A DNA stretch of 23,415 nt, from positions 1 to 23,415 of the IMG/VR virus record IMGVR_UViG_3300018080_001866; one strand, written 5' to 3'. The first letter of the stretch is position 1; every line of letters starts with the position of its first letter. A program made the position numbers and the translations under genes. The stretch comes from a virus. The notes under the pieces are model-generated. The model saw only the letters and a list, made by a program, of their open reading frames with translations. It was not told the origin of the DNA and made no database searches. Of the stretch, positions 3,001 to 23,407 are shown in pieces.

Positions 3001-6000
3001 CTCCCATGACTGCTTTAAATCCTCTTTCACCTCCAACCCATCCACCAATGGCTCCTGCAATTCCACCAACCGCAGCACCAATTGCCGTTCCAACACCAGG
3101 AACAATCATACTTCCGATAGATGCTCCAAGCCCAGCTCCTTTCAAGGCACCTTGTGCTGCTCCAGCTGCACCTTTCGATGTCCCCATTAAGGCTCCGGTT
3201 AGTCCAGCCGTGACTTTTTGACCACCAGTGGCTTTACCCCCGGCCCATTCGTCAGCCCTTTTGACCCCACCATAGAGATCTTTGGCCATCATAGCACCAC
3301 CGACAAGCCCACCACCAAGACCTATTTTACCAGCTGTTGTCAAACCTTTAAATCCAGTCCAACCCATAGTCCCTAATTTTCCAATTCCTTTTCCAATTCC
3401 TTTTCCAGCCCATTTCGTTCCCTGCCAAACAGCAGCCATAGCCGCAGCTATTTGTACAGGAAGAGCTTTAAAAATAGGACCAAAGAATGTTCCAAAGAAT
3501 CCTTTAATCAAAGACCAACCGACCAAGATCCATTTCCAAATACCTTTACCCATCTTTTTCAATCTATTCCCAAATGCAGACATTTTTTCACCAAGGAAGC
3601 CGGTCTTTTTCAACTGTTTAGTCATTAGTTTCGTCTTGATTTTTTCCCAGATTAATCCCTTTTTCGTATCTCTATACACATTACTTAAGAAATCTTTACT
3701 CTTTGATAAAATTCCCTGACTTGTTTTGAATCCAGATTTTAAGGTCAATTGAATTTTGTTGAGGATCTCTAACTCTTTCCGAACACCTGTTTGGATTCCA
3801 CCTTTTATTCGACCTTTGAGTCTTTCGGCCGCTCCGACCCCAGCTTCTCTAGCCTGCTCAGGAGTTCGATATACCATTCCACCCAGAGTTCCAACTTTCT
3901 TGGCTCCTCTTCTTAACGCACCAGCTCCCTTCCAAACACCCGTTCCTTCCCATCTCTTCTTCGCTGCACGATACGCTTTTTCTTTTAGAGGAACTTTCTT
4001 CTTTATGGTAGCGGCATGTTCAGCGAATATTTCTTCTTCAGATTTCACATCTTTCTCACTCCATTTAGGATCGTACTTTTCGGTTTTTGGAACGACTTTG
4101 AATCCTAGTGGGGCTTTCTCTTCTTTTCTAAATTCGGTTATACTCTCACCCATTCCCCATTTTTTTGAGGCTTTTTCTGCGGCAGTCTGTTTTTTCTTGA
4201 GAGCTCTCTCTTCTTCACCAACCGCTTTTTTCCTTTCAATTGAACTCTCTTCTGCTCTACCTCTCATCTCCATTATTAAATTAACAAGTTCGCTCAATTG
4301 ATGAGATGGTCCAACCGCTTGATATTCCATCTTGAGTTGTTCAAGAATCTGATCTAACTTCTCAACAGTTAATTGGGTTCCTGCTACTTGATATGATGTT
4401 TGATTTACGCTTTCCGACGCTTTATTCGCAATTATTTGTAATTGTTCGAGAGATGTTTTAGGTCTTACGGCTTCAGCTTTTCTTTTCTCAAGATCCTTTT
4501 TTTCACGTCTTTTTTCAATGGCATCTTGTACTCTCTTAGGGAGGAATTCACCAACCCTTCTCTCTTTTGTGAGAGCTTCGACATCTGATCCTGCAATTAA
4601 TTTCTTCTTCCCCGCAAATTCGGTTGCTTTCGTTGTTAGACCAACAGCTCCTCTAAATAATCCTTTTCCTGTACCGACAAGACCTTTTCCTAAGGTTGCC
4701 CCAACAGACGCAAGAGTTAACTCTCTTTGTTTGTTAAGGGTTTTCGACATTTCTTCTGGAAGAGTCTTTCCAATTGCAAATTCTATCGGAGCAGCAATCC
4801 CCCTTAACATCTTTCCGGCTACAGTATATGTAGTTTTCTGGACAGGTTCCATTTCATCTGCAACACCACCAGAAATCATTTGACTTGAGTCTTTGATCGC
4901 TCCAATCGTATCTTCTTGACGTTGAATTAAAACATCAAATTTTTGTGCATGTACGTCATATATAAGACCCAATGTCCCAGCGATATTCTGGAAAACATTA
5001 GCGGATCTAGGAACTTCAGAGCCATATTTACTTCTCGCTTTGAAAAGCATTTTGAATGGAGAAGAGACAACGGCCATGAAATCCTTGACACCATAATAAA
5101 TGAACCGCATCACAGGATTTTGAATCAACATTCTCTGCCATAACAGTGTCCACTTTCCAGTCATTCCGGTCATCGCATTACGCATATCCAGAATCGCTCT
5201 GGTCACATCTGTGGTAGATCTCTCATAATCCACATGAACATTCTTCATTGTATCTGCAAAACCTTTGAAGAATCCTTTTCTTTCTTTAGAAACCTCATCC
5301 ATAATCGCAAGATTCTGTTTTGTTTGGAATGAGAACAATCCCTTCATGAAGTCTTTTACAGACGAGGTTGTTTCTTTTCTAGACTTATCCATTTGATTGA
5401 ATAATTTAGAAACTGGAACAATAGCTTCACCCGCATGTGCCCGAATTGTCTTATCTTTTTCAAGAACTCCACCCTTTTGCATCTTCGGGATACTTTTTTG
5501 AGCCTTCTTCATTTTTTTATCGATTGTTGAATCAATATATCTTTTTTCTTCTGCTTTGGATTCACCCTGAATTACTTTTCTAGGAGTTGATTTTAAAGCT
5601 CTTCTTTCAGCCTTCAACTCATTGATTTTATGTCCTGCTTCATCTATAAATCCTTTTGTTCGATCAACTTCTCTAGACATAACCCCTTTAAATTTATCCG
5701 CAACTCCTGACATTGCATCAGTCATTCGAGATTTAATCTTTTCAGTTGCGTCTTTAAACACACTGGTTTCCATAAACTTCGACGCAAAATATCCGAATAA
5801 TGGGCTTGTTCTAGAAAGAGCCATCGTAACAAATTTTTGTTTGTCTATGCTGATTTCACCACTTATCGCTTGACTATATTGGGAGAGTGATTTTCTAGCT
5901 ATTTGAGCAGTATCGTATGAAATGGTCTTGGCACCTTTGGCCATAGCCTCGACTGTTTCTTCCATTTTTCCAAGAACTTTAATCATTGACCTTGACATGG

Positions 6001-13435: not shown

Positions 13436-13509
13436 TGGCGATGCTGAGGGGAATCGAACCCCTGTCGAATGATGGACAGTCAAACATGTTACCACTACAC
13501 CACAGCACC
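13436..13509 (-). tRNA. tRNA-Asp (anticodon GTC)
   Basis: A 74-base tRNA with encoded CCA. The acceptor GGTGCTG pairs with CAGCATC (one G-U), the D stem is GTGT/ACAT and the T arm AGGGG-TTCGATT-CCCCT. The anticodon loop is CTGTCCA (13473-13479), giving anticodon GTC at 13475-13477. Discriminator G73 and G10 agree with bacterial tRNA-Asp identity. The anticodon stem is poor: three pairs (TGA/TCA) and then two U-U mismatches. It sits inside a leftward gene cluster and is presumably cut from a longer transcript. Confidence 0.85.
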
Positions 13510-14121: not shown

Positions 14122-14847
14122 TCATGCAAATTCTAAACAGATTGATTCGGTGAATGGTCTGAGATAAAAGTCAAAATATCGACTCCTATCAATCTCATCC
14201 ACATCCAATAGGTTGACCATATTTTCTGTGATCCGAACTTCACCCATACCTTTGACGAATATGTTATATTCTCCTTCTCCAACTGGAATACAAAATAAAT
14301 CAGGATCGTCTGATCCCATAAATTCATCCTTCAATTTTTGTAAGTTTTTGAAGATGTCTGTTTTGTTCATGTAACTCATTCTGACTAATCTTCCCATGAA
14401 CTCATTCATTTCCTCGTATTTATGTGAAACCCCTTTGATTGAGATTTCTTTTCCATCAAAAGCCATATAACTCTTTCGATCAGATGAAATGATGAACGTC
14501 TGATAAATAGATCTTAATTCAAGGGGAAGATATTCCTGGTTTTTGTTTTTCAGGGGCCTTCGAAGAATTATCCCATCGTATTGTCTCGTAACAATGTCGT
14601 CTTCTTTGATATTGTTACGAGTTAAATGTTCACTTACAGTTGAGGTTGTGATGTCCCTCAAGATGTTCACCAGCTCTGGTCGTTCTCTCATCATCAACCC
14701 GATCTGGATATTTCTTTGAGTTTTATCGTCTTTATCCAGTTTCGAAAGATCGAAATTCATCTCTCGGAGGATTGAATAATGACAAGCCGAGATGTCATAG
14801 AGATAAACATCTCTCATGAAAAACGGACACGTTGAGTTTATATTCAT
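14122..14847 (-). CDS. Polymerase-palm-like small protein
   Basis: A 241-residue protein with three motifs in the order and spacing style of a family B DNA polymerase palm. DISACHYSIL (residues 18-27) lines up with motif A D-x2-SLYPSI. KTQRNIQIG (42-50) matches motif B K-x3-N-x2-[YI]-G. RQYDGIIL (88-95) stands where motif C Y-x-DTD would be, but keeps only one aspartate. The region between motifs A and C is far shorter than in any full polymerase, and there is no exonuclease domain. The C-terminal 140 residues are unrecognised. It overlaps the upstream zinc-finger gene and the downstream methyltransferase-like gene by ATGA. It could be a minimal nucleotidyl transferase, a relic or a polymerase accessory; function is inferred only. 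Confidence 0.7.
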   Translation of the reverse strand: MNINSTCPFFMRDVYLYDISACHYSILREMNFDLSKLDKDDKTQRNIQIGLMMRERPELVNILRDITTSTVSEHLTRNNIKEDDIVTRQYDGIILRRPLKNKNQEYLPLELRSIYQTFIISSDRKSYMAFDGKEISIKGVSHKYEEMNEFMGRLVRMSYMNKTDIFKNLQKLKDEFMGSDDPDLFCIPVGEGEYNIFVKGMGEVRITENMVNLLDVDEIDRSRYFDFYLRPFTESICLEFA

Positions 14848-15107
14848 CTTTGTTTTCCTGTGACTTGTGCAACCCAGTCAAGTTTGCCTTTTCCTTTACA
14901 TTTTTCACATGTAGCACGTTTGAATAAAGGGCCTTCATAAAAATCAAAATTTTCTTTTCGTGATTGAAAACATCTATCATCTATGACCTCTACAAATCTT
15001 GATCTGGATCTTCCAGTTCCGTCACATTTTGGGCATATTATTTCACTCATTTCTTCATTGAGTTCTAATTCTGAACTCCTGTGTTCTGTATTAGTGATAT
15101 CGCTCAT
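14844..15107 (-). CDS. DnaJ-like CxxCxGxG zinc-finger protein
   Basis: An 87-residue protein with CPKCDGTG (C25, C28) and CEKCKGKG (C67, C70), two half-repeats of the DnaJ-type zinc finger that bind one zinc ion between them. The ending GKGKLDWVAQVTGK resembles GHGKVDWIENVIGR at the end of the protein at 20423-20731. The N-terminus is acidic. A good AAGGAG precedes the ATG, and the stop overlaps the next ATG as ATGA. Such small proteins are frequent in large phages; their targets are unknown. It is not a J-domain chaperone, since no HPD segment is present. Confidence 0.75.
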   Translation of the reverse strand: MSDITNTEHRSSELELNEEMSEIICPKCDGTGRSRSRFVEVIDDRCFQSRKENFDFYEGPLFKRATCEKCKGKGKLDWVAQVTGKQR

Positions 15108-16454: not shown

Positions 16455-16531
16455 TGGTCTGCCGGGCAGGATTTGAACCTGCGACTTTCTGGCCCCAAAC
16501 CAGACGCACTACCCGGCTGTGCTACCGGCAG
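16455..16531 (-). tRNA. tRNA-Pro (anticodon TGG)
   Basis: A 77-base tRNA with encoded CCA. The acceptor CTGCCGG pairs perfectly with CCGGCAG, the D stem is GCAC/GTGC, the anticodon arm TCTGG-TTTGGGG-CCAGA and the T arm GCAGG-TTCAAAT-CCTGC. The anticodon TGG is at 16495-16497. C1-G72 and A73 are the identity features of bacterial tRNA-Pro. The 5' 23 bases also encode the end of the HNH endonuclease gene, including its stop codon. Confidence 0.95.
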
Positions 16532-17261: not shown

Positions 17262-18350
17262 CTAGTCGTTAGCGACTGTTTCTGTCTTCTCCCAGACTCT
17301 CTTTCTGAGGCCCAGAATCTCGTCATCGTTGAATGTGAGCCGATCCCAGTCAGTCCTCTTTCCAGGCTGACGATATCCTTTCTCCCATTCTTTGTCCTTC
17401 AGCCATGCTGGCATTTTGTTCTGACCATATTTGAAAAGGGCCAGCTCTGTGGCTCGGGTCGCAAACCGCAGCTTCGTGGTGGTGGATATCATCTTCTTCC
17501 TCATCCTGGTAATCTCGATGAGGTTTTCTTGGGTGGCTTCATATGTAGGATACTCCCCTACGAGTTCGGGGAAATCCACCTCAACCTGGAAGGCCGGAAC
17601 CTTGATCTTCTTCCCGGCTTCTTTGGTCGTCCTTCCGTGTGATCTCGGGGCTTCGGTCGATTCTGGGGGATACTCGATGCCCTCTTCCAGAAGCCGCTTG
17701 ATTTCTCTATTCAGATGCGAGGCCTGTTCTGTCAGCCGGCTGATCATCGCTTTTGTGATGAAATAGTATTGGCCGTAGAAGCTGGTCCATCTGTTCGGGT
17801 GGACGAAGTTTTTGAAGATGACCATGTTGCCGGTCCACAATTGATTCTCTGTGATGAATTTGTTCTCATCGGCTGACGGGAGGAACTCGATCTTCTGCCA
17901 TCCCTTGTACCATTCACCTTCCAGATCTGTCAGAGCGAAATTCCGGAATGCCCCGACTGAATCTGAGGTCATCACATTCATGTCCTTGATCCGGACTGAG
18001 AATGAAAAGACATCTTTATTTGAGGTGAGGCCGATGACATTTCCATGTCGATTCTCGGCCGACGTGATCATCTCACCCTCTCTCCGAGTCCTGGCCCGAA
18101 GTCCCTTATATTTCGGGAGATTGATCACAGCCCCTCTGTTGGCCAGGGCATAGATGAAACATGCCAGATCCAGATCGGTTCCGACGAAGACACCGTCCCG
18201 ATATGCAGGACCTGGGCTTCTTGACATGAGGTCATAACCCCACCAGTAGACGACCTCATCCACAGAGGCCAGGATGTCCGAATCCCGATTGATAATGTCA
18301 TCCATTAATTGTGTCTCAAGCAAAGATGTCAATGATTGAGCCGCGCACAT
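17262..18350 (-). CDS. Hypothetical 362-residue protein, G+C-rich
   Basis: A 362-residue protein with no recognised family. The first half is mixed alpha/beta (VDEVVYWWGYDLMSR, FVGTDLDLACFIYALANRG). A Trp/Tyr/Phe-rich middle (NRWTSFYGQYYFITKAMISR) is followed by a charged helix (LNREIKRLLEEGIEYPPEST) and a Lys/Arg-rich end. The ATG at 18350 has AAGGAG six bases upstream and overlaps the preceding array gene by 35 bases. Codons end in C or G far more often than in the array genes next to it, a clear base-composition step at their junction. Like the genes at 11773 and 15196, it may be strongly expressed or acquired separately. Confidence 0.8.
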   Translation of the reverse strand: MCAAQSLTSLLETQLMDDIINRDSDILASVDEVVYWWGYDLMSRSPGPAYRDGVFVGTDLDLACFIYALANRGAVINLPKYKGLRARTRREGEMITSAENRHGNVIGLTSNKDVFSFSVRIKDMNVMTSDSVGAFRNFALTDLEGEWYKGWQKIEFLPSADENKFITENQLWTGNMVIFKNFVHPNRWTSFYGQYYFITKAMISRLTEQASHLNREIKRLLEEGIEYPPESTEAPRSHGRTTKEAGKKIKVPAFQVEVDFPELVGEYPTYEATQENLIEITRMRKKMISTTTKLRFATRATELALFKYGQNKMPAWLKDKEWEKGYRQPGKRTDWDRLTFNDDEILGLRKRVWEKTETVAND

Positions 18351-18759
18351 AATTTGCTCCTTCCTGATCGTATCGTTTTATGGTTTTGATTAATCCTTCT
18401 GTAAATTGATCACTCAGATTGTACTGTAACACGGTGTTCTCGACCATTAATCTCCAGTCTCTATTGAGCATAACATTGATCACACCCCAATGTAATAAGT
18501 TGGGATTATTATCCACTTTGAGTGGTACGAGTTCTTTAAATTCGTGATAAATCACTTTTCCTCTAAATTTCAAAAATCTGAAATGCCACATATATGTAAT
18601 TACTGGATATGACCCGACTCCATCAGTGATGATGTTGGGAGAATCTCCAAAGAAATTCACTATGGTGCTGTACCCAACATCTATTAAATGAGCTGATGTA
18701 TATCTCTGACTTTCCATTGTGAAAGATTCAATTTGCTCGAACTTCCCTCTCACTCTCAT
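18316..18759 (-). CDS. FG-motif array member A
   Basis: A 147-residue member of the tandem paralogous family. The family signature is present as VGYSTIVNFFGDSP (about residues 28-41; Ser replaces the usual His), then MWHFRF and VMLNRDWRLMV. The C-terminus is longer than in the short members. The ATG overlaps the stop of member B as ATGA. It is the last array gene in the direction of reading, overlapping the start of the 362-residue gene by 35 bases. The function of the family is unknown. Confidence 0.75.
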   Translation of the reverse strand: MRVRGKFEQIESFTMESQRYTSAHLIDVGYSTIVNFFGDSPNIITDGVGSYPVITYMWHFRFLKFRGKVIYHEFKELVPLKVDNNPNLLHWGVINVMLNRDWRLMVENTVLQYNLSDQFTEGLIKTIKRYDQEGANYVRGSIIDIFA

Positions 18760-19122
18760 TTCATATTTTTCTCCCCCTCACAGATATAGGTTCGGATCTT
18801 TTCCCACATGGGGGCAAGTCCATCTTTGTCTTTTTCCATTCCCACAACCACCAGCTGCCAGTTTGTATTCAGAAGACCTAATGTCATTTCCGGTAGATGT
18901 CTTTCGTATGCGATATACCCTTTGAATTCTCTTTCATTAACTGAGAATATCCATTCGTACACTTCCGCATCTGGTTCTAGAAATTTGCATATAAGTGGGT
19001 CTCCGAATAAATTGACTAAATTGTGATAGCTGGTATAGATATGTTTCGCATGTCTTCTTGTCGGTCTATATGGGGGGAATATCTACATATGATACTTCTT
19101 CTCGATCATATACCTGAATCAT
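18756..19122 (-). pseudogene. FG-motif array member B, frameshifted at a C6 run
   Basis: The gene starts at ATG 19122, overlapping member C, and reads MIQVYDREEVSYVDIPPI before a TAG at 19066-19068. The family signature (YTSYHNLVNLFGDP) and the rest, to a stop at 18756, are in the +1 frame, and that frame has no ATG, GTG or TTG before the motif. Removing one C from the run of six at 19072-19077 restores one frame of about 117 codons. YEWIFS and LLNTNWQLVVV then follow as in the siblings, with similarity to member C (REFKGY..., PMWEKIRTYI). It may be a true mutation, a sequencing error in the homopolymer, or a +1 recoding site at CCC CCC A. Confidence 0.75.
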
Positions 19123-19447
19123 CTCTGGTCTCATAAATATATTTTCGCATCAACCTCCACATCGGGAATATATATTTGTCATTCCCGACTACCGTCAATG
19201 TCCATCGTCTATTTAATACTACTGATAGATAACTGGAATCCATCTTCTCATAATTGAGAAACCCCTTGAGTCTTTTTCTGTAAAACACAAATTCCCATTC
19301 GTAAAATTCAGGAGAATGACTGACAAATGGATACCCAAACAGATTTACGAGGGTGTGATATCCTACGAATATGTCACGGCAGTAATGGAGTCTTGGATTT
19401 CTTGGTTCAATATCTTCATATTCATAGATATCCCTGATGATTCTCAT
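19106..19447 (-). CDS. FG-motif array member C
   Basis: A 113-residue member with VGYHTLVNLFGYP, YEWEFVF, VVLNRRWTLTVVG and FPMWRLMRKYIYE. The start is the ATG overlapping the stop of member D (ATGA); an upstream GTG at 19483 gives a longer frame lying over member D and is rejected. It is closest to member B in its second half, so the two probably arose from one duplication. Function unknown. Confidence 0.75.
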   Translation of the reverse strand: MRIIRDIYEYEDIEPRNPRLHYCRDIFVGYHTLVNLFGYPFVSHSPEFYEWEFVFYRKRLKGFLNYEKMDSSYLSVVLNRRWTLTVVGNDKYIFPMWRLMRKYIYETRDDSGI

Positions 19448-19812
19448 TCGACCCTCATCAACATATTCCGAAATTCGTACCACACAGTTTTCATATCTTT
19501 TACATTATGTGACCGTACATCTAGGGTCCAGTCTGTGGTGAGAAGAATTGAGTTTTCTTCTTCTAGACCATAGACTTCCCCGAAAATATTTCGGAACTTG
19601 AAGAATTTTGTCTCGTAAACGAAATACCAAGAGTACATATTTTTGGGAAAAGCCCACCCTAGGGATAATTGTTGAACACCTCCAAATTCACCAAATACAT
19701 TTGTGATCACATGATACGGAACCTTTACATTTCTTGCGTGGCTATATTTGAGATTCTTTTTATTTTCTGAGAAGGTTTCGTATGGAATCCTAATGATTTG
19801 TTTAGGATTCAT
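19444..19812 (-). CDS. FG-motif array member D
   Basis: A 122-residue member with VPYHVITNVFGEF, YSWYFVYETKFF and ILLTTDWTLDVR. The N-terminus is basic and polar. The ATG lies 11 bases inside the end of member E, and the stop overlaps member C as ATGA, so the three are translationally linked. Function unknown. Confidence 0.75.
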   Translation of the reverse strand: MNPKQIIRIPYETFSENKKNLKYSHARNVKVPYHVITNVFGEFGGVQQLSLGWAFPKNMYSWYFVYETKFFKFRNIFGEVYGLEEENSILLTTDWTLDVRSHNVKDMKTVWYEFRNMLMRVE

Positions 19813-20407
19813 TTTCAGATCCCGTAATCAAGACTACCGCATCATCCAGAATACGCTCCATGTGTTCTTTCGCACCTACATCAAATGCGATGATATCCAA
19901 CCACCAATCAGTCACCAACAGAGGATTCAATTTCCTCGTTGTGTCTGATCTTAGGACCAGAACAAATGCGGGCACACTGGGTAACATATCTCTCACATTC
20001 TGTTTTCCGATGAGAGTTCGGATATATTTGAAATTGAATGGAAACATATACTTTCTATCTGCGTAGTGTTCTACGGTCATGAACCATCCACACTCGTCGA
20101 CTTTCTCCCACATACATCCTTCTAATTTTTCGACGTGATCCCAAAATTCTGGCTCCCCGAATAAATTCTCAAGGGTGTGATATCCGATGCAAGGTAGATC
20201 TGATGTCTCCCCAGTTACATGTAATTTCGATTTCGATCTGGCACATAAAGCAGCTCTCATTGCGGAAAATTTCAGATAGTCGTATCTCGAAATAGTTTTG
20301 AAGTCACTCCTTTTCAGAGGTCTTGGTTCACTTGTTTTATATTTCAGCTTATTCGGAAATACTCTTCTGATCAATCGTTGGAAAAACCGAAGAATCGAAC
20401 CTAACAT
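19802..20407 (-). CDS. FG-motif array member E, long form
   Basis: The longest member, with 201 residues. The first 25 (MLGSILRFFQRLIRRVFPNK) form a basic amphipathic helix that could bind membrane. The signature follows as IGYHTLENLFGEPEFW, then GWFMTVEHY, an inserted segment and NPLLVTDWWLDIIAFD. A good AGAGGAG precedes the ATG, and there is a short gap after the zinc-finger gene. Of the array genes, only this one carries such an extension. Confidence 0.75.
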   Translation of the reverse strand: MLGSILRFFQRLIRRVFPNKLKYKTSEPRPLKRSDFKTISRYDYLKFSAMRAALCARSKSKLHVTGETSDLPCIGYHTLENLFGEPEFWDHVEKLEGCMWEKVDECGWFMTVEHYADRKYMFPFNFKYIRTLIGKQNVRDMLPSVPAFVLVLRSDTTRKLNPLLVTDWWLDIIAFDVGAKEHMERILDDAVVLITGSENES

Positions 20408-20422
20408 TTTTTTCTCCTCTTT

Positions 20423-20731
20423 TCAGTATTTTTTTCTGTATCTTCCGATAACATTCTCGATCCAATCCACCTTCCCATGACCTTGACATCTCCAACAGAA
20501 TCTATCCCAACCCTTACATCTATCACAATAAACTTCCCCACGCTCATCCCTCAATTGGATGACGGGGTTGGGCATTCCCAGTTTTTTCATGATGTTGAGG
20601 ATAAGTAGTTTTATTTTAGAACAGTGTTCACATATATACCCAAATGCGGGTCTCTTCCCTTCGCACATGTAACACCAACACCATTCTAATTCTTTGACAA
20701 GTTTCCTTATGATTTTGAAGATCAAATTCAT
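20423..20731 (-). CDS. Cys-rich zinc-finger protein inside the array
   Basis: A 102-residue protein with nine cysteines: WCWCYMC (C18, C20, C23), CEHC (C34, C37), CDRC (C69, C72) and CWRCQGHG (C79, C82). These could bind two zinc ions. The N-terminus, MNLIFKIIRKLVKELEW, is a basic amphipathic helix like that of member E. The end, CQGHGKVDWIENVIGR, resembles the end of the DnaJ-like protein at 14844-15107. AAGGAG lies upstream, and the start overlaps the stop of member F as ATGA. It does not carry the FG motif. Confidence 0.75.
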   Translation of the reverse strand: MNLIFKIIRKLVKELEWCWCYMCEGKRPAFGYICEHCSKIKLLILNIMKKLGMPNPVIQLRDERGEVYCDRCKGWDRFCWRCQGHGKVDWIENVIGRYRKKY

Positions 20732-21120
20732 CCCCTCTCCTTTATGTAACCCTTCAAGAGGTCAAAACATCTAGTACAACATTGGTAATCCTGATCGAAT
20801 ATCTGAACATTCCAATTTCGATTTAGAAGAATCGGACCCAACCTTGATTTAGCCTCTAACCATTGGATTATCCCATATATCCAATCAACTTTGAAGCTCC
20901 ACACAAAATGCAGGACTTCGAAATTGTCCACATATATCGTCGCAATTTCTCCAAATAAGTTACACAAGGTATGATAACCCACATCTTCCAACATAAAATC
21001 TGACCATGATATCCCATTAAGGGAGAGATCATTATAATAATATTTCAAAACTTCCATGTAAGGTGTGGGTTGAACATTCTTGAGATATTTGTATAATCTA
21101 TTCTCGACCGACGATCCCAT
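20728..21120 (-). CDS. FG-motif array member F
   Basis: A member of about 130 residues with DVGYHTLCNLFGEI, FVWSFKVDW and GPILLNRNWNVQIFD, and a CCTRC near the C-terminus. The start is uncertain. ATGs at 21153, 21132, 21120 and 21057 are in frame and none has a clear SD; 21120 limits the overlap with the clpP-like gene. The stop overlaps the zinc-finger gene as ATGA. Function unknown. Confidence 0.7.
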   Translation of the reverse strand: MGSSVENRLYKYLKNVQPTPYMEVLKYYYNDLSLNGISWSDFMLEDVGYHTLCNLFGEIATIYVDNFEVLHFVWSFKVDWIYGIIQWLEAKSRLGPILLNRNWNVQIFDQDYQCCTRCFDLLKGYIKERG

Positions 21121-21670
21121 CGACAAGCCCATATTTGATACACTCTTTTGCATCGAGATATAGATCCCTCTTTAGAAGTTCAGAGATGAAACTTTTGGAC
21201 ATCTTTGTATGTTTGCAATATATATTCTTTATCATTTTCATGAGTTTTCTTGAGTTCTTTCCCCAATCAACCAACTCTTCATATTTCCCCCAAAATCCAT
21301 GAGACATTTGATGAACCAGGATAAATGCGTGGGGGTTGATCAATCGTCTTGTTCCTACCACGCTCATGAATGTTCCAGCACTCATGCAACATCCGTCAAT
21401 GACGGTTGTCACTGGGACGATTTCTTTCACATTCAAAATTTCATCCATCATGGCAATTCCTGCAAAGACAGATCCACCAAATGTATTTATGTGGACAAAT
21501 ATATTTCCGGGGTCGTCCATCTCTTCAACGACTTGTCTCCTGATAAGACCGTTTTTCATGTTCCGGATCGATTTGTTGAAGTCCAATGCTGTTGATCTTT
21601 CAACATCGTTGTAAAAATAGATTCTATTCTTGACAACCTCAGATTTCGAAACTGTTTTTATCTCTGCCAT
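21098..21670 (-). CDS. clpP: ClpP-like serine protease (family S14)
   Basis: A 190-residue protein with the ClpP/crotonase fold signature. HINTFGGSVFAGIAMMDEI (about residues 60-78) matches the 'InSpGG-x-v-x-aG-x-aiyd' segment. The nucleophile region is CMSAGTFM with Ser97, followed by FILVHQMSHG with His120, and KRDLYLDAKECIKYGLVDGI with Asp169, so the Ser-His-Asp triad is complete. It is about as long as cellular ClpP. Phage S14 proteases usually act in head maturation next to portal and capsid genes, but this one sits inside an array of unknown genes, so another substrate is possible. AAAGGGA precedes the ATG. It overlaps both neighbours. Confidence 0.92.
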   Translation of the reverse strand: MAEIKTVSKSEVVKNRIYFYNDVERSTALDFNKSIRNMKNGLIRRQVVEEMDDPGNIFVHINTFGGSVFAGIAMMDEILNVKEIVPVTTVIDGCCMSAGTFMSVVGTRRLINPHAFILVHQMSHGFWGKYEELVDWGKNSRKLMKMIKNIYCKHTKMSKSFISELLKRDLYLDAKECIKYGLVDGIVGRE

Positions 21671-22046
21671 GTAATTCCCTTTCTTCGTAAGATTGAATGA
21701 AATCGACTATTTCTTGGAGTTGTTTCTGTATGGATGGTAGACCATCTCTTCGACACACTCGAATATACATCGTCCACGATTCAATGAAGAATATATGTTC
21801 CTTTTTATATTCCTCTCCGATTATAATACCAATATGGGTATCTGTTTTAAAATACCACATATGCTGAAAATATTGAATTGTGAGATTCACTTTCGTTGAA
21901 TGATGTATATCTCCAAAAATATTACATATTATGTGATATGGAACATAGATTGTGTATCCCGATGTCGTATATGAGGTATCCCCCACGGCATGTTGGGCAA
22001 TTACGGTTTCATAATATTCTTTCAAAGTGATGGGTTCGATGTTCAT
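21639..22046 (-). CDS. FG-motif array member G
   Basis: A 135-residue member beginning MNIEPITLKEYYETV, the same N-terminal pattern as members H, I and K. The signature follows as VPYHIICNIFGDI, then MWYFKTDTHIG and IFFIESWTMYIRV. The C-terminal helix runs into the start of the clpP-like gene with a 32-base overlap. The ATG overlaps the stop of the shifted frame of member H as ATGA. Confidence 0.75.
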   Translation of the reverse strand: MNIEPITLKEYYETVIAQHAVGDTSYTTSGYTIYVPYHIICNIFGDIHHSTKVNLTIQYFQHMWYFKTDTHIGIIIGEEYKKEHIFFIESWTMYIRVCRRDGLPSIQKQLQEIVDFIQSYEERELHGRDKNSFEI

Positions 22047-22392
22047 GATTCTTTATCCGCATATGTGATATGTTCAACAACTTCTTTCAATATGTGGACG
22101 TGTTTTTTCTGACCTTGAGACTCCAATTCTTGCACAACAGAATTGAGGATCTCCCCACTTCCTCTTTTCCCATTATCATACCGGAAATTTTATAATTAGT
22201 GAGGAAATACCAACAATGTTTATTTACCTGTGGGCCAGAATTTGTGGGAATAGGGACAGTGATCATAATATGATCAGGTTCTCCGAACATATTGATTATC
22301 GTATGATAGCTCGCATTAAAATATATGTTGATTGTATTCACCACAACTCCAAGCGAGAGATATTTATAGAAATCAATCGGTTGTATCTTCAT
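22043..22392 (-). CDS. FG-motif array member H with a frameshift at A_AAA_AAC
   Basis: The gene starts at ATG 22392 (MKIQPIDFYKYLSL, AGAGGA upstream) and has ASYHTIINMFGEP, CWYFLTNYKI and ILLCKNWSLKVRK. In the zero frame it stops at 22087, without the C-terminal helix of its siblings. A minus-one shift at A_AAA_AAC (22102-22108) continues as KKHVHILKEVVEHITY and ends at TGA 22043-22045, overlapping the next ATG as ATGA, exactly like the other members. So the original gene was about 117 codons. It is either a one-base loss in a homopolymer, a sequencing error, or programmed minus-one frameshifting. Confidence 0.75.
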
Positions 22393-22720
22393 TTTCAATC
22401 CTCTCGAAAAGCTCGACCATGTATTCGATATGATGAGGTTGACAATTCGACATGGTCATGACCCAATCTCTTTTGAGAAATATGGGTTCACCTGTTTTTT
22501 TAATCATTGCCATCACGTATCCGATAACCACATTATCCAATTCGAAATTCCAGAAATAATAATTATGGGTGGTGCTCAGAGTGGTCGTAACATACACCAC
22601 ATCACCGAGGACTTTCACGATTGTATGATACCCAACATCCTCGATTCTCTGCATACCCAATGTGTCTTCCAATTTAATTCTTTTGTGATATTCGTCTTCA
22701 TCAATCGATCTCAGGTTCAA
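22373..22720 (-). CDS. FG-motif array member I, TTG start
   Basis: A 115-residue member with DVGYHTIVKVLGDV, YYFWNFELDN and PIFLKRDWVMTM. The start is taken as TTG 22720, because the resulting NLRSIDEDEYHKR matches the N-terminal pattern of members G, H and K and GGAGG lies upstream; an ATG at 22738 is the alternative. It overlaps member J by 20 bases and member H by 20 bases. Confidence 0.7.
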   Translation of the reverse strand: MNLRSIDEDEYHKRIKLEDTLGMQRIEDVGYHTIVKVLGDVVYVTTTLSTTHNYYFWNFELDNVVIGYVMAMIKKTGEPIFLKRDWVMTMSNCQPHHIEYMVELFERIENEDTTD

Positions 22721-23048
22721 TTTTTCCCTCCTCCACATCGATGAAATATTCTAGAATTTCCCCAAACATCGTTTCTCCAATTGACCCATCATAATAGATG
22801 AACACTTTCCAGGTCTTATTCAAGAATACAGGGATGCGATCATCAGCCTCAATTTCATATACAAGATCATCAACTTTAAAATACCACCCATATTTACCGT
22901 AATCGACCTCTCCCCACACGACCGTCCATGTATTTTGAATGGGTCCTAAAATTTTGTAGATGGTGTGAAATGATATTCCACATAGATGAGTGGCAGCTCG
23001 GAGTTCCCAATTGGGTATATCATGTATGGTGGCTAGTTGAATATTCAT
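22701..23048 (-). CDS. FG-motif array member J
   Basis: A 115-residue diverged member: ISFHTIYKILGPI, YGWYFKVDDLVYEIE and PVFLNKTWKVFIYYDG. The G-E/D after the FG-type motif is replaced by G-P. It has a clear AGGAG before the ATG, and its tail (EGKIEPEID) overlaps the start of member I. Confidence 0.75.
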   Translation of the reverse strand: MNIQLATIHDIPNWELRAATHLCGISFHTIYKILGPIQNTWTVVWGEVDYGKYGWYFKVDDLVYEIEADDRIPVFLNKTWKVFIYYDGSIGETMFGEILEYFIDVEEGKIEPEID

Positions 23049-23056
23049 CGCTTCTC

Positions 23057-23407
23057 CTATATAATTGCGACTTCGAATAATCCCCTGATTTTATTATATA
23101 CCTGTTCACTTTGTTTCTCGATAAATTCATGATGCCCTGAGAATAAGAATAACCACATTCTATTTAGCAGGATATGTCCCCCAGGTTTCTGTATATGTGT
23201 ATGTATGAAACACTTGATTGGATAATTACGGAATCGAAAGAACCATCTATATTGGGAGAATGCGTCTGCATCCATGATATTAGGTTCTCCCAGAATATTA
23301 ACAATTTCGTGATACCCAATATTGTCGATTAGAATTGATCTGGATAGTGATTTTTTCCAATGTGAGGTTGCGACATATTCGTCTGCATCAATTAGAATTA
23401 ACCCCAT
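23057..23407 (-). CDS. FG-motif array member K
   Basis: A 116-residue member with MGLILIDADEYVA at the N-terminus, then NIGYHEIVNILGEP, YRWFFRFRNYPIKCFIH and HILLNRMWLFLFSG. It ends eight bases before member J. Its start is only eight bases from the right edge of the window, so the SD is not visible and the array may continue beyond. Confidence 0.75.
   Translation of the reverse strand: MGLILIDADEYVATSHWKKSLSRSILIDNIGYHEIVNILGEPNIMDADAFSQYRWFFRFRNYPIKCFIHTHIQKPGGHILLNRMWLFLFSGHHEFIEKQSEQVYNKIRGLFEVAII

Follow-up and report, generated by a model that had tools for sequence, protein, structure and literature searches.

An array of at least eleven diverged paralogs in a phage contig and its likely kinship with a widespread, unnamed phage protein family

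The viral contig analyzed here (the window, a whole record of 23,415 bases) carries eleven diverged copies of a small protein (m1 to m5, m7, and m9 to m13) between positions 18316 and 23407, each encoded on the minus strand. Among tailed phages, large and diverged tandem arrays are unusual. Profile comparisons and structural models suggest that this apparent orphan array is instead a diverged branch of a widespread, unnamed, and nearly virus-only phage family, a link that is new. Our preferred reading, to which we assign a probability of roughly 0.45, is a lineage-specific amplification of a small binding scaffold whose copies would have been diversified for host takeover or counter-defence.

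The original prediction described eleven paralogs in this region, with a ClpP-like and a zinc-finger gene as the sole interruptions, and both the count and the interruptions hold (Table 1), the second interrupting gene being Cys-rich and zinc-ribbon-like. The shared motifs are present, namely [YF]H..x[NK]x[FL]G, W-x-F about 20 residues later, and a second invariant tryptophan, with m1 deviating by YS in place of YH; G45, W63, and W92 are invariant in the alignment of array members. A profile built without a given member recovers that member in each case, with E-values between 5e-6 and 3e-18 among the 261 ORFs of the window, and the best non-member ORF in these leave-one-out searches is never better than 0.019. 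The divergence is as deep as had been proposed, pairwise identity being 13 to 36% and mostly 20 to 28%. Neighboring members are slightly more alike than non-neighbors (24.8% versus 22.5% identity, permutation p 0.017), which agrees with tandem duplication. Tandem arrangement, paralogy, and overlapping genes are thereby supported, whereas the description of the members as proteins of mostly 113 to 147 residues has to be amended: m2 lies in two frames, the m10 ORF is short, and m5, with an N-terminal extension and an internal insertion, exceeds this range.

Table 1. Coordinates of the array genes and of the gene directly downstream in the window.
Feature	Positions	Strand	Description	E-value when left out
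Conserved 362-aa gene	17262..18350	-	directly downstream of array; anchor for locus comparison	
m1	18316..18759	-	paralog, 147 aa, last of array; ATGA overlap with m2	1.1e-11
m2	18756..19122	-	paralog in two frames	2.6e-18 (body)
m3	19106..19462	-	paralog	5.5e-15
m4	19444..19812	-	paralog, 122 aa	2.7e-13
m5	19802..20407	-	paralog, 201 aa	5e-6
Zinc-ribbon-like Cys-rich protein	20423..20731	-	inside array, non-paralog	
m7	20728..21153	-	paralog, at most 141 aa; internal ATG starts possible	2.5e-16
ClpP-like protease	21098..21670	-	inside array; Pfam CLP_protease 1.6e-27	
m9	21639..22046	-	paralog, 135 aa	5.6e-17
m10	22043..22392	-	paralog, C-terminal helix in -1 frame	8.8e-14
m11	22373..22738	-	paralog, structure modeled	5.7e-17
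m12	22701..23048	-	paralog, 115 aa	1.4e-11
m13	23057..23407	-	paralog, 116 aa, first array gene on contig	1.2e-15

Overlaps between most array genes measure 4 to about 40 nt and in several cases take the form of an ATGA; the genes are probably coupled. The m3 ORF opens at 19483 and its start is uncertain, the ATG in the ATGA overlap with m4 being likely, and the true start of m11 is probably a TTG slightly inside its ORF, behind GGAGGAGGG. Because the contig ends 8 nt upstream of the m13 ATG, eleven members represent a minimum count, and the array probably continues beyond the contig, which in all probability is itself only part of a larger phage genome. The large terminase has T4-type relatives, with Flavobacterium phage immuto as the best named one (29% identity), and 78 relatives in IMG/VR at about 51 to 64% identity, some of them in records of 150 to 277 kb. 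The gene content of the stretch from the terminase to the 362-aa gene is partly conserved in these IMG/VR relatives. A promoter scan gave a result at shuffle level.

The route to the wider family passed through the record of L048, which holds a member that still has IYNYK and WHVGG and leads to a protein of ct2os315 (UOF82029.1), encoded next to an ArdC anti-restriction gene. From ct2os315, the family was traced to phages of Prochlorococcus, Methylophilales, and Flavobacterium. Its proteins are 90 to 120 aa long and carry the signature FGEP...EW...IYDWK...WHIGG (further examples are P-SCSP2 ULF50207.1, immuto QQO92051.1, and Melnitz-3 QZI95072.1). A DNA pattern for YDWK-x10-WHIGG occurs in at least 120 environmental viral contigs, with one match in 84,980 cellular genomes. 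Among the loci examined, which are fragments, there is never more than one copy per locus, and the gene often lies near genes for a T7-type primase-helicase, DNA polymerase A, ArdC, and Gp88-like proteins, neighborhoods that point to early or replication regions. Pfam and PHROGs each returned nothing significant for ten window members or for the zinc-ribbon-like protein, nor did Pfam and NCBIfam for 31 wide-family members; PHROGs gave no match for the one wide-family protein scanned, and a literature search found nothing relevant on the motif or on such arrays. Beside the wide-family member in L080, three genes (3-260, 801-1166, and 1694-2212) begin with MKIK[NV]DFITNSSS[TA]SFI and form a small paralog group with a fixed N-terminus.

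Aligned with hhalign, the array and the wide family match over 72 columns at a probability of 89% and a score of 37.3; with the columns shuffled 100 times the score never exceeds 16.7, and reversing the alignment yields 12.8. A profile built from the window alone and run against 21,558 ORFs ranks its own members first, followed by L002, L080, and then the wide family in a nearly unbroken series, whose proteins have E-values from 1.8e-4 to about 0.1. In the reverse direction, the first matches of the wide profile outside its own family are L002 (0.0036) and three window members (0.07 to 0.3). These scores are individually modest, and because they combine with the shared folds described below, homology between the array and the wide family is very likely. 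Searches by tblastn with the single members m11 and m3 gave no match in named phages, m3 alone gave none in viral contigs, and neither did a DNA pattern for YHT[IL]xNxFGE. A profile search of the records of 37 relatives returned one match only and missed the L002 member that HMMER detects; hence, its empty results are weak evidence of absence.

AlphaFold models of m11 (pLDDT 88.5, pTM 0.81, from an 11-row alignment) and of a wide-family protein (pLDDT 89.2, pTM 0.82, from 31 rows) show the same order of elements, b-a-b-b-b-a, with a strand, a helix at the FG motif, further strands, and a C-terminal helix. A compact fold of this type is thus predicted to be common to both branches. Neither refuting outcome named in the original prediction was observed: profiles recover the omitted members, and in a structural comparison run in part, the fold modeled for a single member is also predicted for distant relatives. 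When searched independently against a viral library, both models match the same uncharacterized models (A0A6J5MR94, A0A6J5RUC8, A0A516LKV2, A0A7S9SU48, and A0A1J0GVZ8 of phage BRock), with E-values of 0.0025 to 0.34 for the m11 model and 1e-4 or better for the wide-family model.

Against solved structures, the best match of the m11 model is the AP2 beta2 appendage (Z 8.1) and that of the wide-family model reaches Z 6.8, where the best background match is typically 7 to 8; the latter model also lists an RnlA toxin domain (Z 5.3) and TBP chains (Z about 3 to 4.3). The strand-helix arrangement of the models resembles that of the adaptor appendage platform, TBP-like, and RnlA structures, suggesting a platform or TBP-like arrangement, but the scores are at or below background, no sequence similarity was found, and no function is transferable. 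If the fold were TBP-like, the paralogs could be nucleic-acid-binding regulators, each copy serving a different promoter, RNA, or DNA structure, as the TBP and RnlA rows would favor. We consider this improbable, given that these Z values fall in the background range of such models, that adaptor appendage platforms, which are peptide binders, appear among the top rows, and that no conserved basic surface is evident from the alignment. Two further candidates were rejected: alanyl-tRNA synthetase, the only kind of PDB match of the sequence profile (0.035, chance level), and a BamE/BLIP-like fold, considered because of a helix-GxP look, with BamE reaching only Z about 2.4.

The joint alignment separates what the array has kept from what it has lost. 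The G of FG, the W of EW, and the W of WHIGG are kept, whereas K, YDWK, and HIGG are absent from all eleven copies. In the wide family, K, YDWK, and WHIGG are nearly unchanged, although the invariance of YDWK and WHIGG in its alignment (A4) is partly a selection artefact, as the seeds were selected solely by the YDWK/WHIGG pattern; A3 and L080 were not chosen in this way. Because these residues are missing from every copy, the array is described as a diverged sister branch and not as a member of the wide family. The two branches are alike in profile-level homology, predicted element order, FG turn, two tryptophans, and similar size, and differ in that the wide family is seen as a single copy per locus with K/YDWK/HIGG conserved, compared with at least eleven copies without these motifs. 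We infer that the folding core was retained, the ancestral site was abandoned, and the copies moved apart in different directions. The array would then represent a natural mutational series for the family, distinguishing residues needed for folding (kept) from those needed for the ancestral job (lost).

This pattern also bears on gene dosage, in which copies would be retained to raise the amount of a single counter-defence product. The tandem array belongs to a phage with a T4-type terminase, and T4 itself repeatedly amplified its counter-defence operon dmd-tifA under toxIN selection (PMC9391042). The two cases are both tandem amplifications of small genes in a T4-type phage. In T4, however, the repeats that arose in laboratory evolution spanned whole segments and served dosage, whereas the array copies, at 13 to 36% identity, have diverged far beyond what simple dosage would leave, and the ancestral conserved site is gone from each of them. 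Dosage is therefore very unlikely.

The age of the amplification is a separate matter. The original prediction called it old, which is not established: with the 362-aa gene as anchor, tblastn finds homologs at 62, 51, and 56% identity in L002, L058, and L069, and in all three a folE2-like gene (named by eye from sequence) lies upstream of the homolog, separated from it by small genes, and no member of the family was found in this region. The closest phage, L002 (terminase 64%), has a single family member at a different place, and a more distant relative, L213 (46%), carries other small genes upstream of its 362-aa homolog. Because three of the closest relatives hold a folE2-like gene in place of the array, the amplification may be lineage-specific and fast-evolving, and because relatives carry other genes at this position, the array represents, as far as sampled, an accessory insertion specific to its lineage. 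The genes upstream of the homolog in L213 include a different small look-alike pair (4261-4599 and 5383-5742, sharing LETD.EF..R...E), a hint that small gene families accumulate at this locus. In the record of L069, apparent large multi-subunit RNA polymerase proteins of 928 and 901 aa (L208:1456-7280, by eye) lie just upstream of the folE2-like gene.

The same comparison weighs on the idea that the paralogs are subunits of one hetero-oligomeric phage complex, such as a ring, a shell, or a decoration of the virion, whose parts would be produced in a constant ratio from a single operon. The co-directional, overlapping genes would fit this, as would the location of the array, which precedes a long stretch of leftward genes with the terminase gene among them, and the presence inside it of a ClpP-like protein akin to head maturation proteases (phrog_94, 6.5e-38). 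Nevertheless, the array is absent here in relatives with the same flanking genes, the wide family is single-copy and has replication or early genes as neighbors, and a search of the records of 16 relatives, which had no positive control, did not turn up the ClpP-like gene. A single complex is hence an unlikely explanation.

Binders for host takeover or counter-defence fit best because the proteins are small, virus-only, single-domain, and associated with early regions, and because they amplify and diverge in an accessory spot. The T4 dmd-tifA amplification is a precedent that illustrates the onset of an array of this kind. Repeated rounds of unequal recombination at an accessory locus would have multiplied a single-copy gene, after which the copies would have kept the folding core (FG turn and two tryptophans), dropped K/YDWK/HIGG, and diverged elsewhere. 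The outcome would be a set of small binding modules made together from one operon, each suited to its own partner among host or defence proteins. That every copy has its own target is a little short of an even bet; if the copies do bind different host proteins, they would offer ready-made probes for finding host or defence targets in a host yet to be cultured. The earlier suggestion of diversification against host targets is a plausible hypothesis. Counting against such binders, the ClpP-like gene could indicate a late or structural context, and two of the eleven copies are broken as written.

In these two copies, m2 and m10, the complete protein can be read only with a shift of one base at a homopolymer of six bases; the nine others are intact. 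The N-terminus of m2 (MIQVYDREEVSYVDIPP, ATG at 19122) and its body lie in two frames that a +1 shift joins at a C6 run (19072-19077). The m10 ORF encodes 103 aa without the C-terminal helix and ends at a 0-frame stop at 22087; the missing helix (HVHILKEVVEHITYADKES) lies in the -1 frame after A_AAA_AAC (22103-22108; codons AGA AAA AAC), and this frame ends at 22043 in an ATGA overlap onto m9. In the register of m10, A_AAA_AAC is a classical -1 slippery heptamer. The shifts may reflect programmed shifting, slippage switching, mutation, or assembly error. As about 20 runs of at least six A in a 2048-aa ORF all stay in frame, a high homopolymer error rate is unlikely, though single sequencing errors are possible.

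The need for such shifts could also mark accessory DNA in decay, left by an old duplication whose copies have no function and drift. With nine intact copies, dense packing, overlapping starts, and retained core residues, we give this little probability, and coding DNA of about 5 kb that serves no purpose is seldom retained by phages. Returning to the preferred binding scaffold, its most specific form would be a virus-only repertoire without the ancestral site, in which at least eleven copies each have a host or defence protein of their own as target and some (m2 and m10) are switched by homopolymer slippage or frameshifting; taken in full, this is rather unlikely.

Elsewhere in the window, a tRNA-Pro(TGG) lies at 16455-16531 and a tRNA-Asp(GTC) at 13436-13509. 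A small Cys-rich protein outside the array (14844-15107) has a C-terminal pattern similar to that of the zinc-ribbon-like protein inside it, C..C.G.GK.DW[IV]..V.G.
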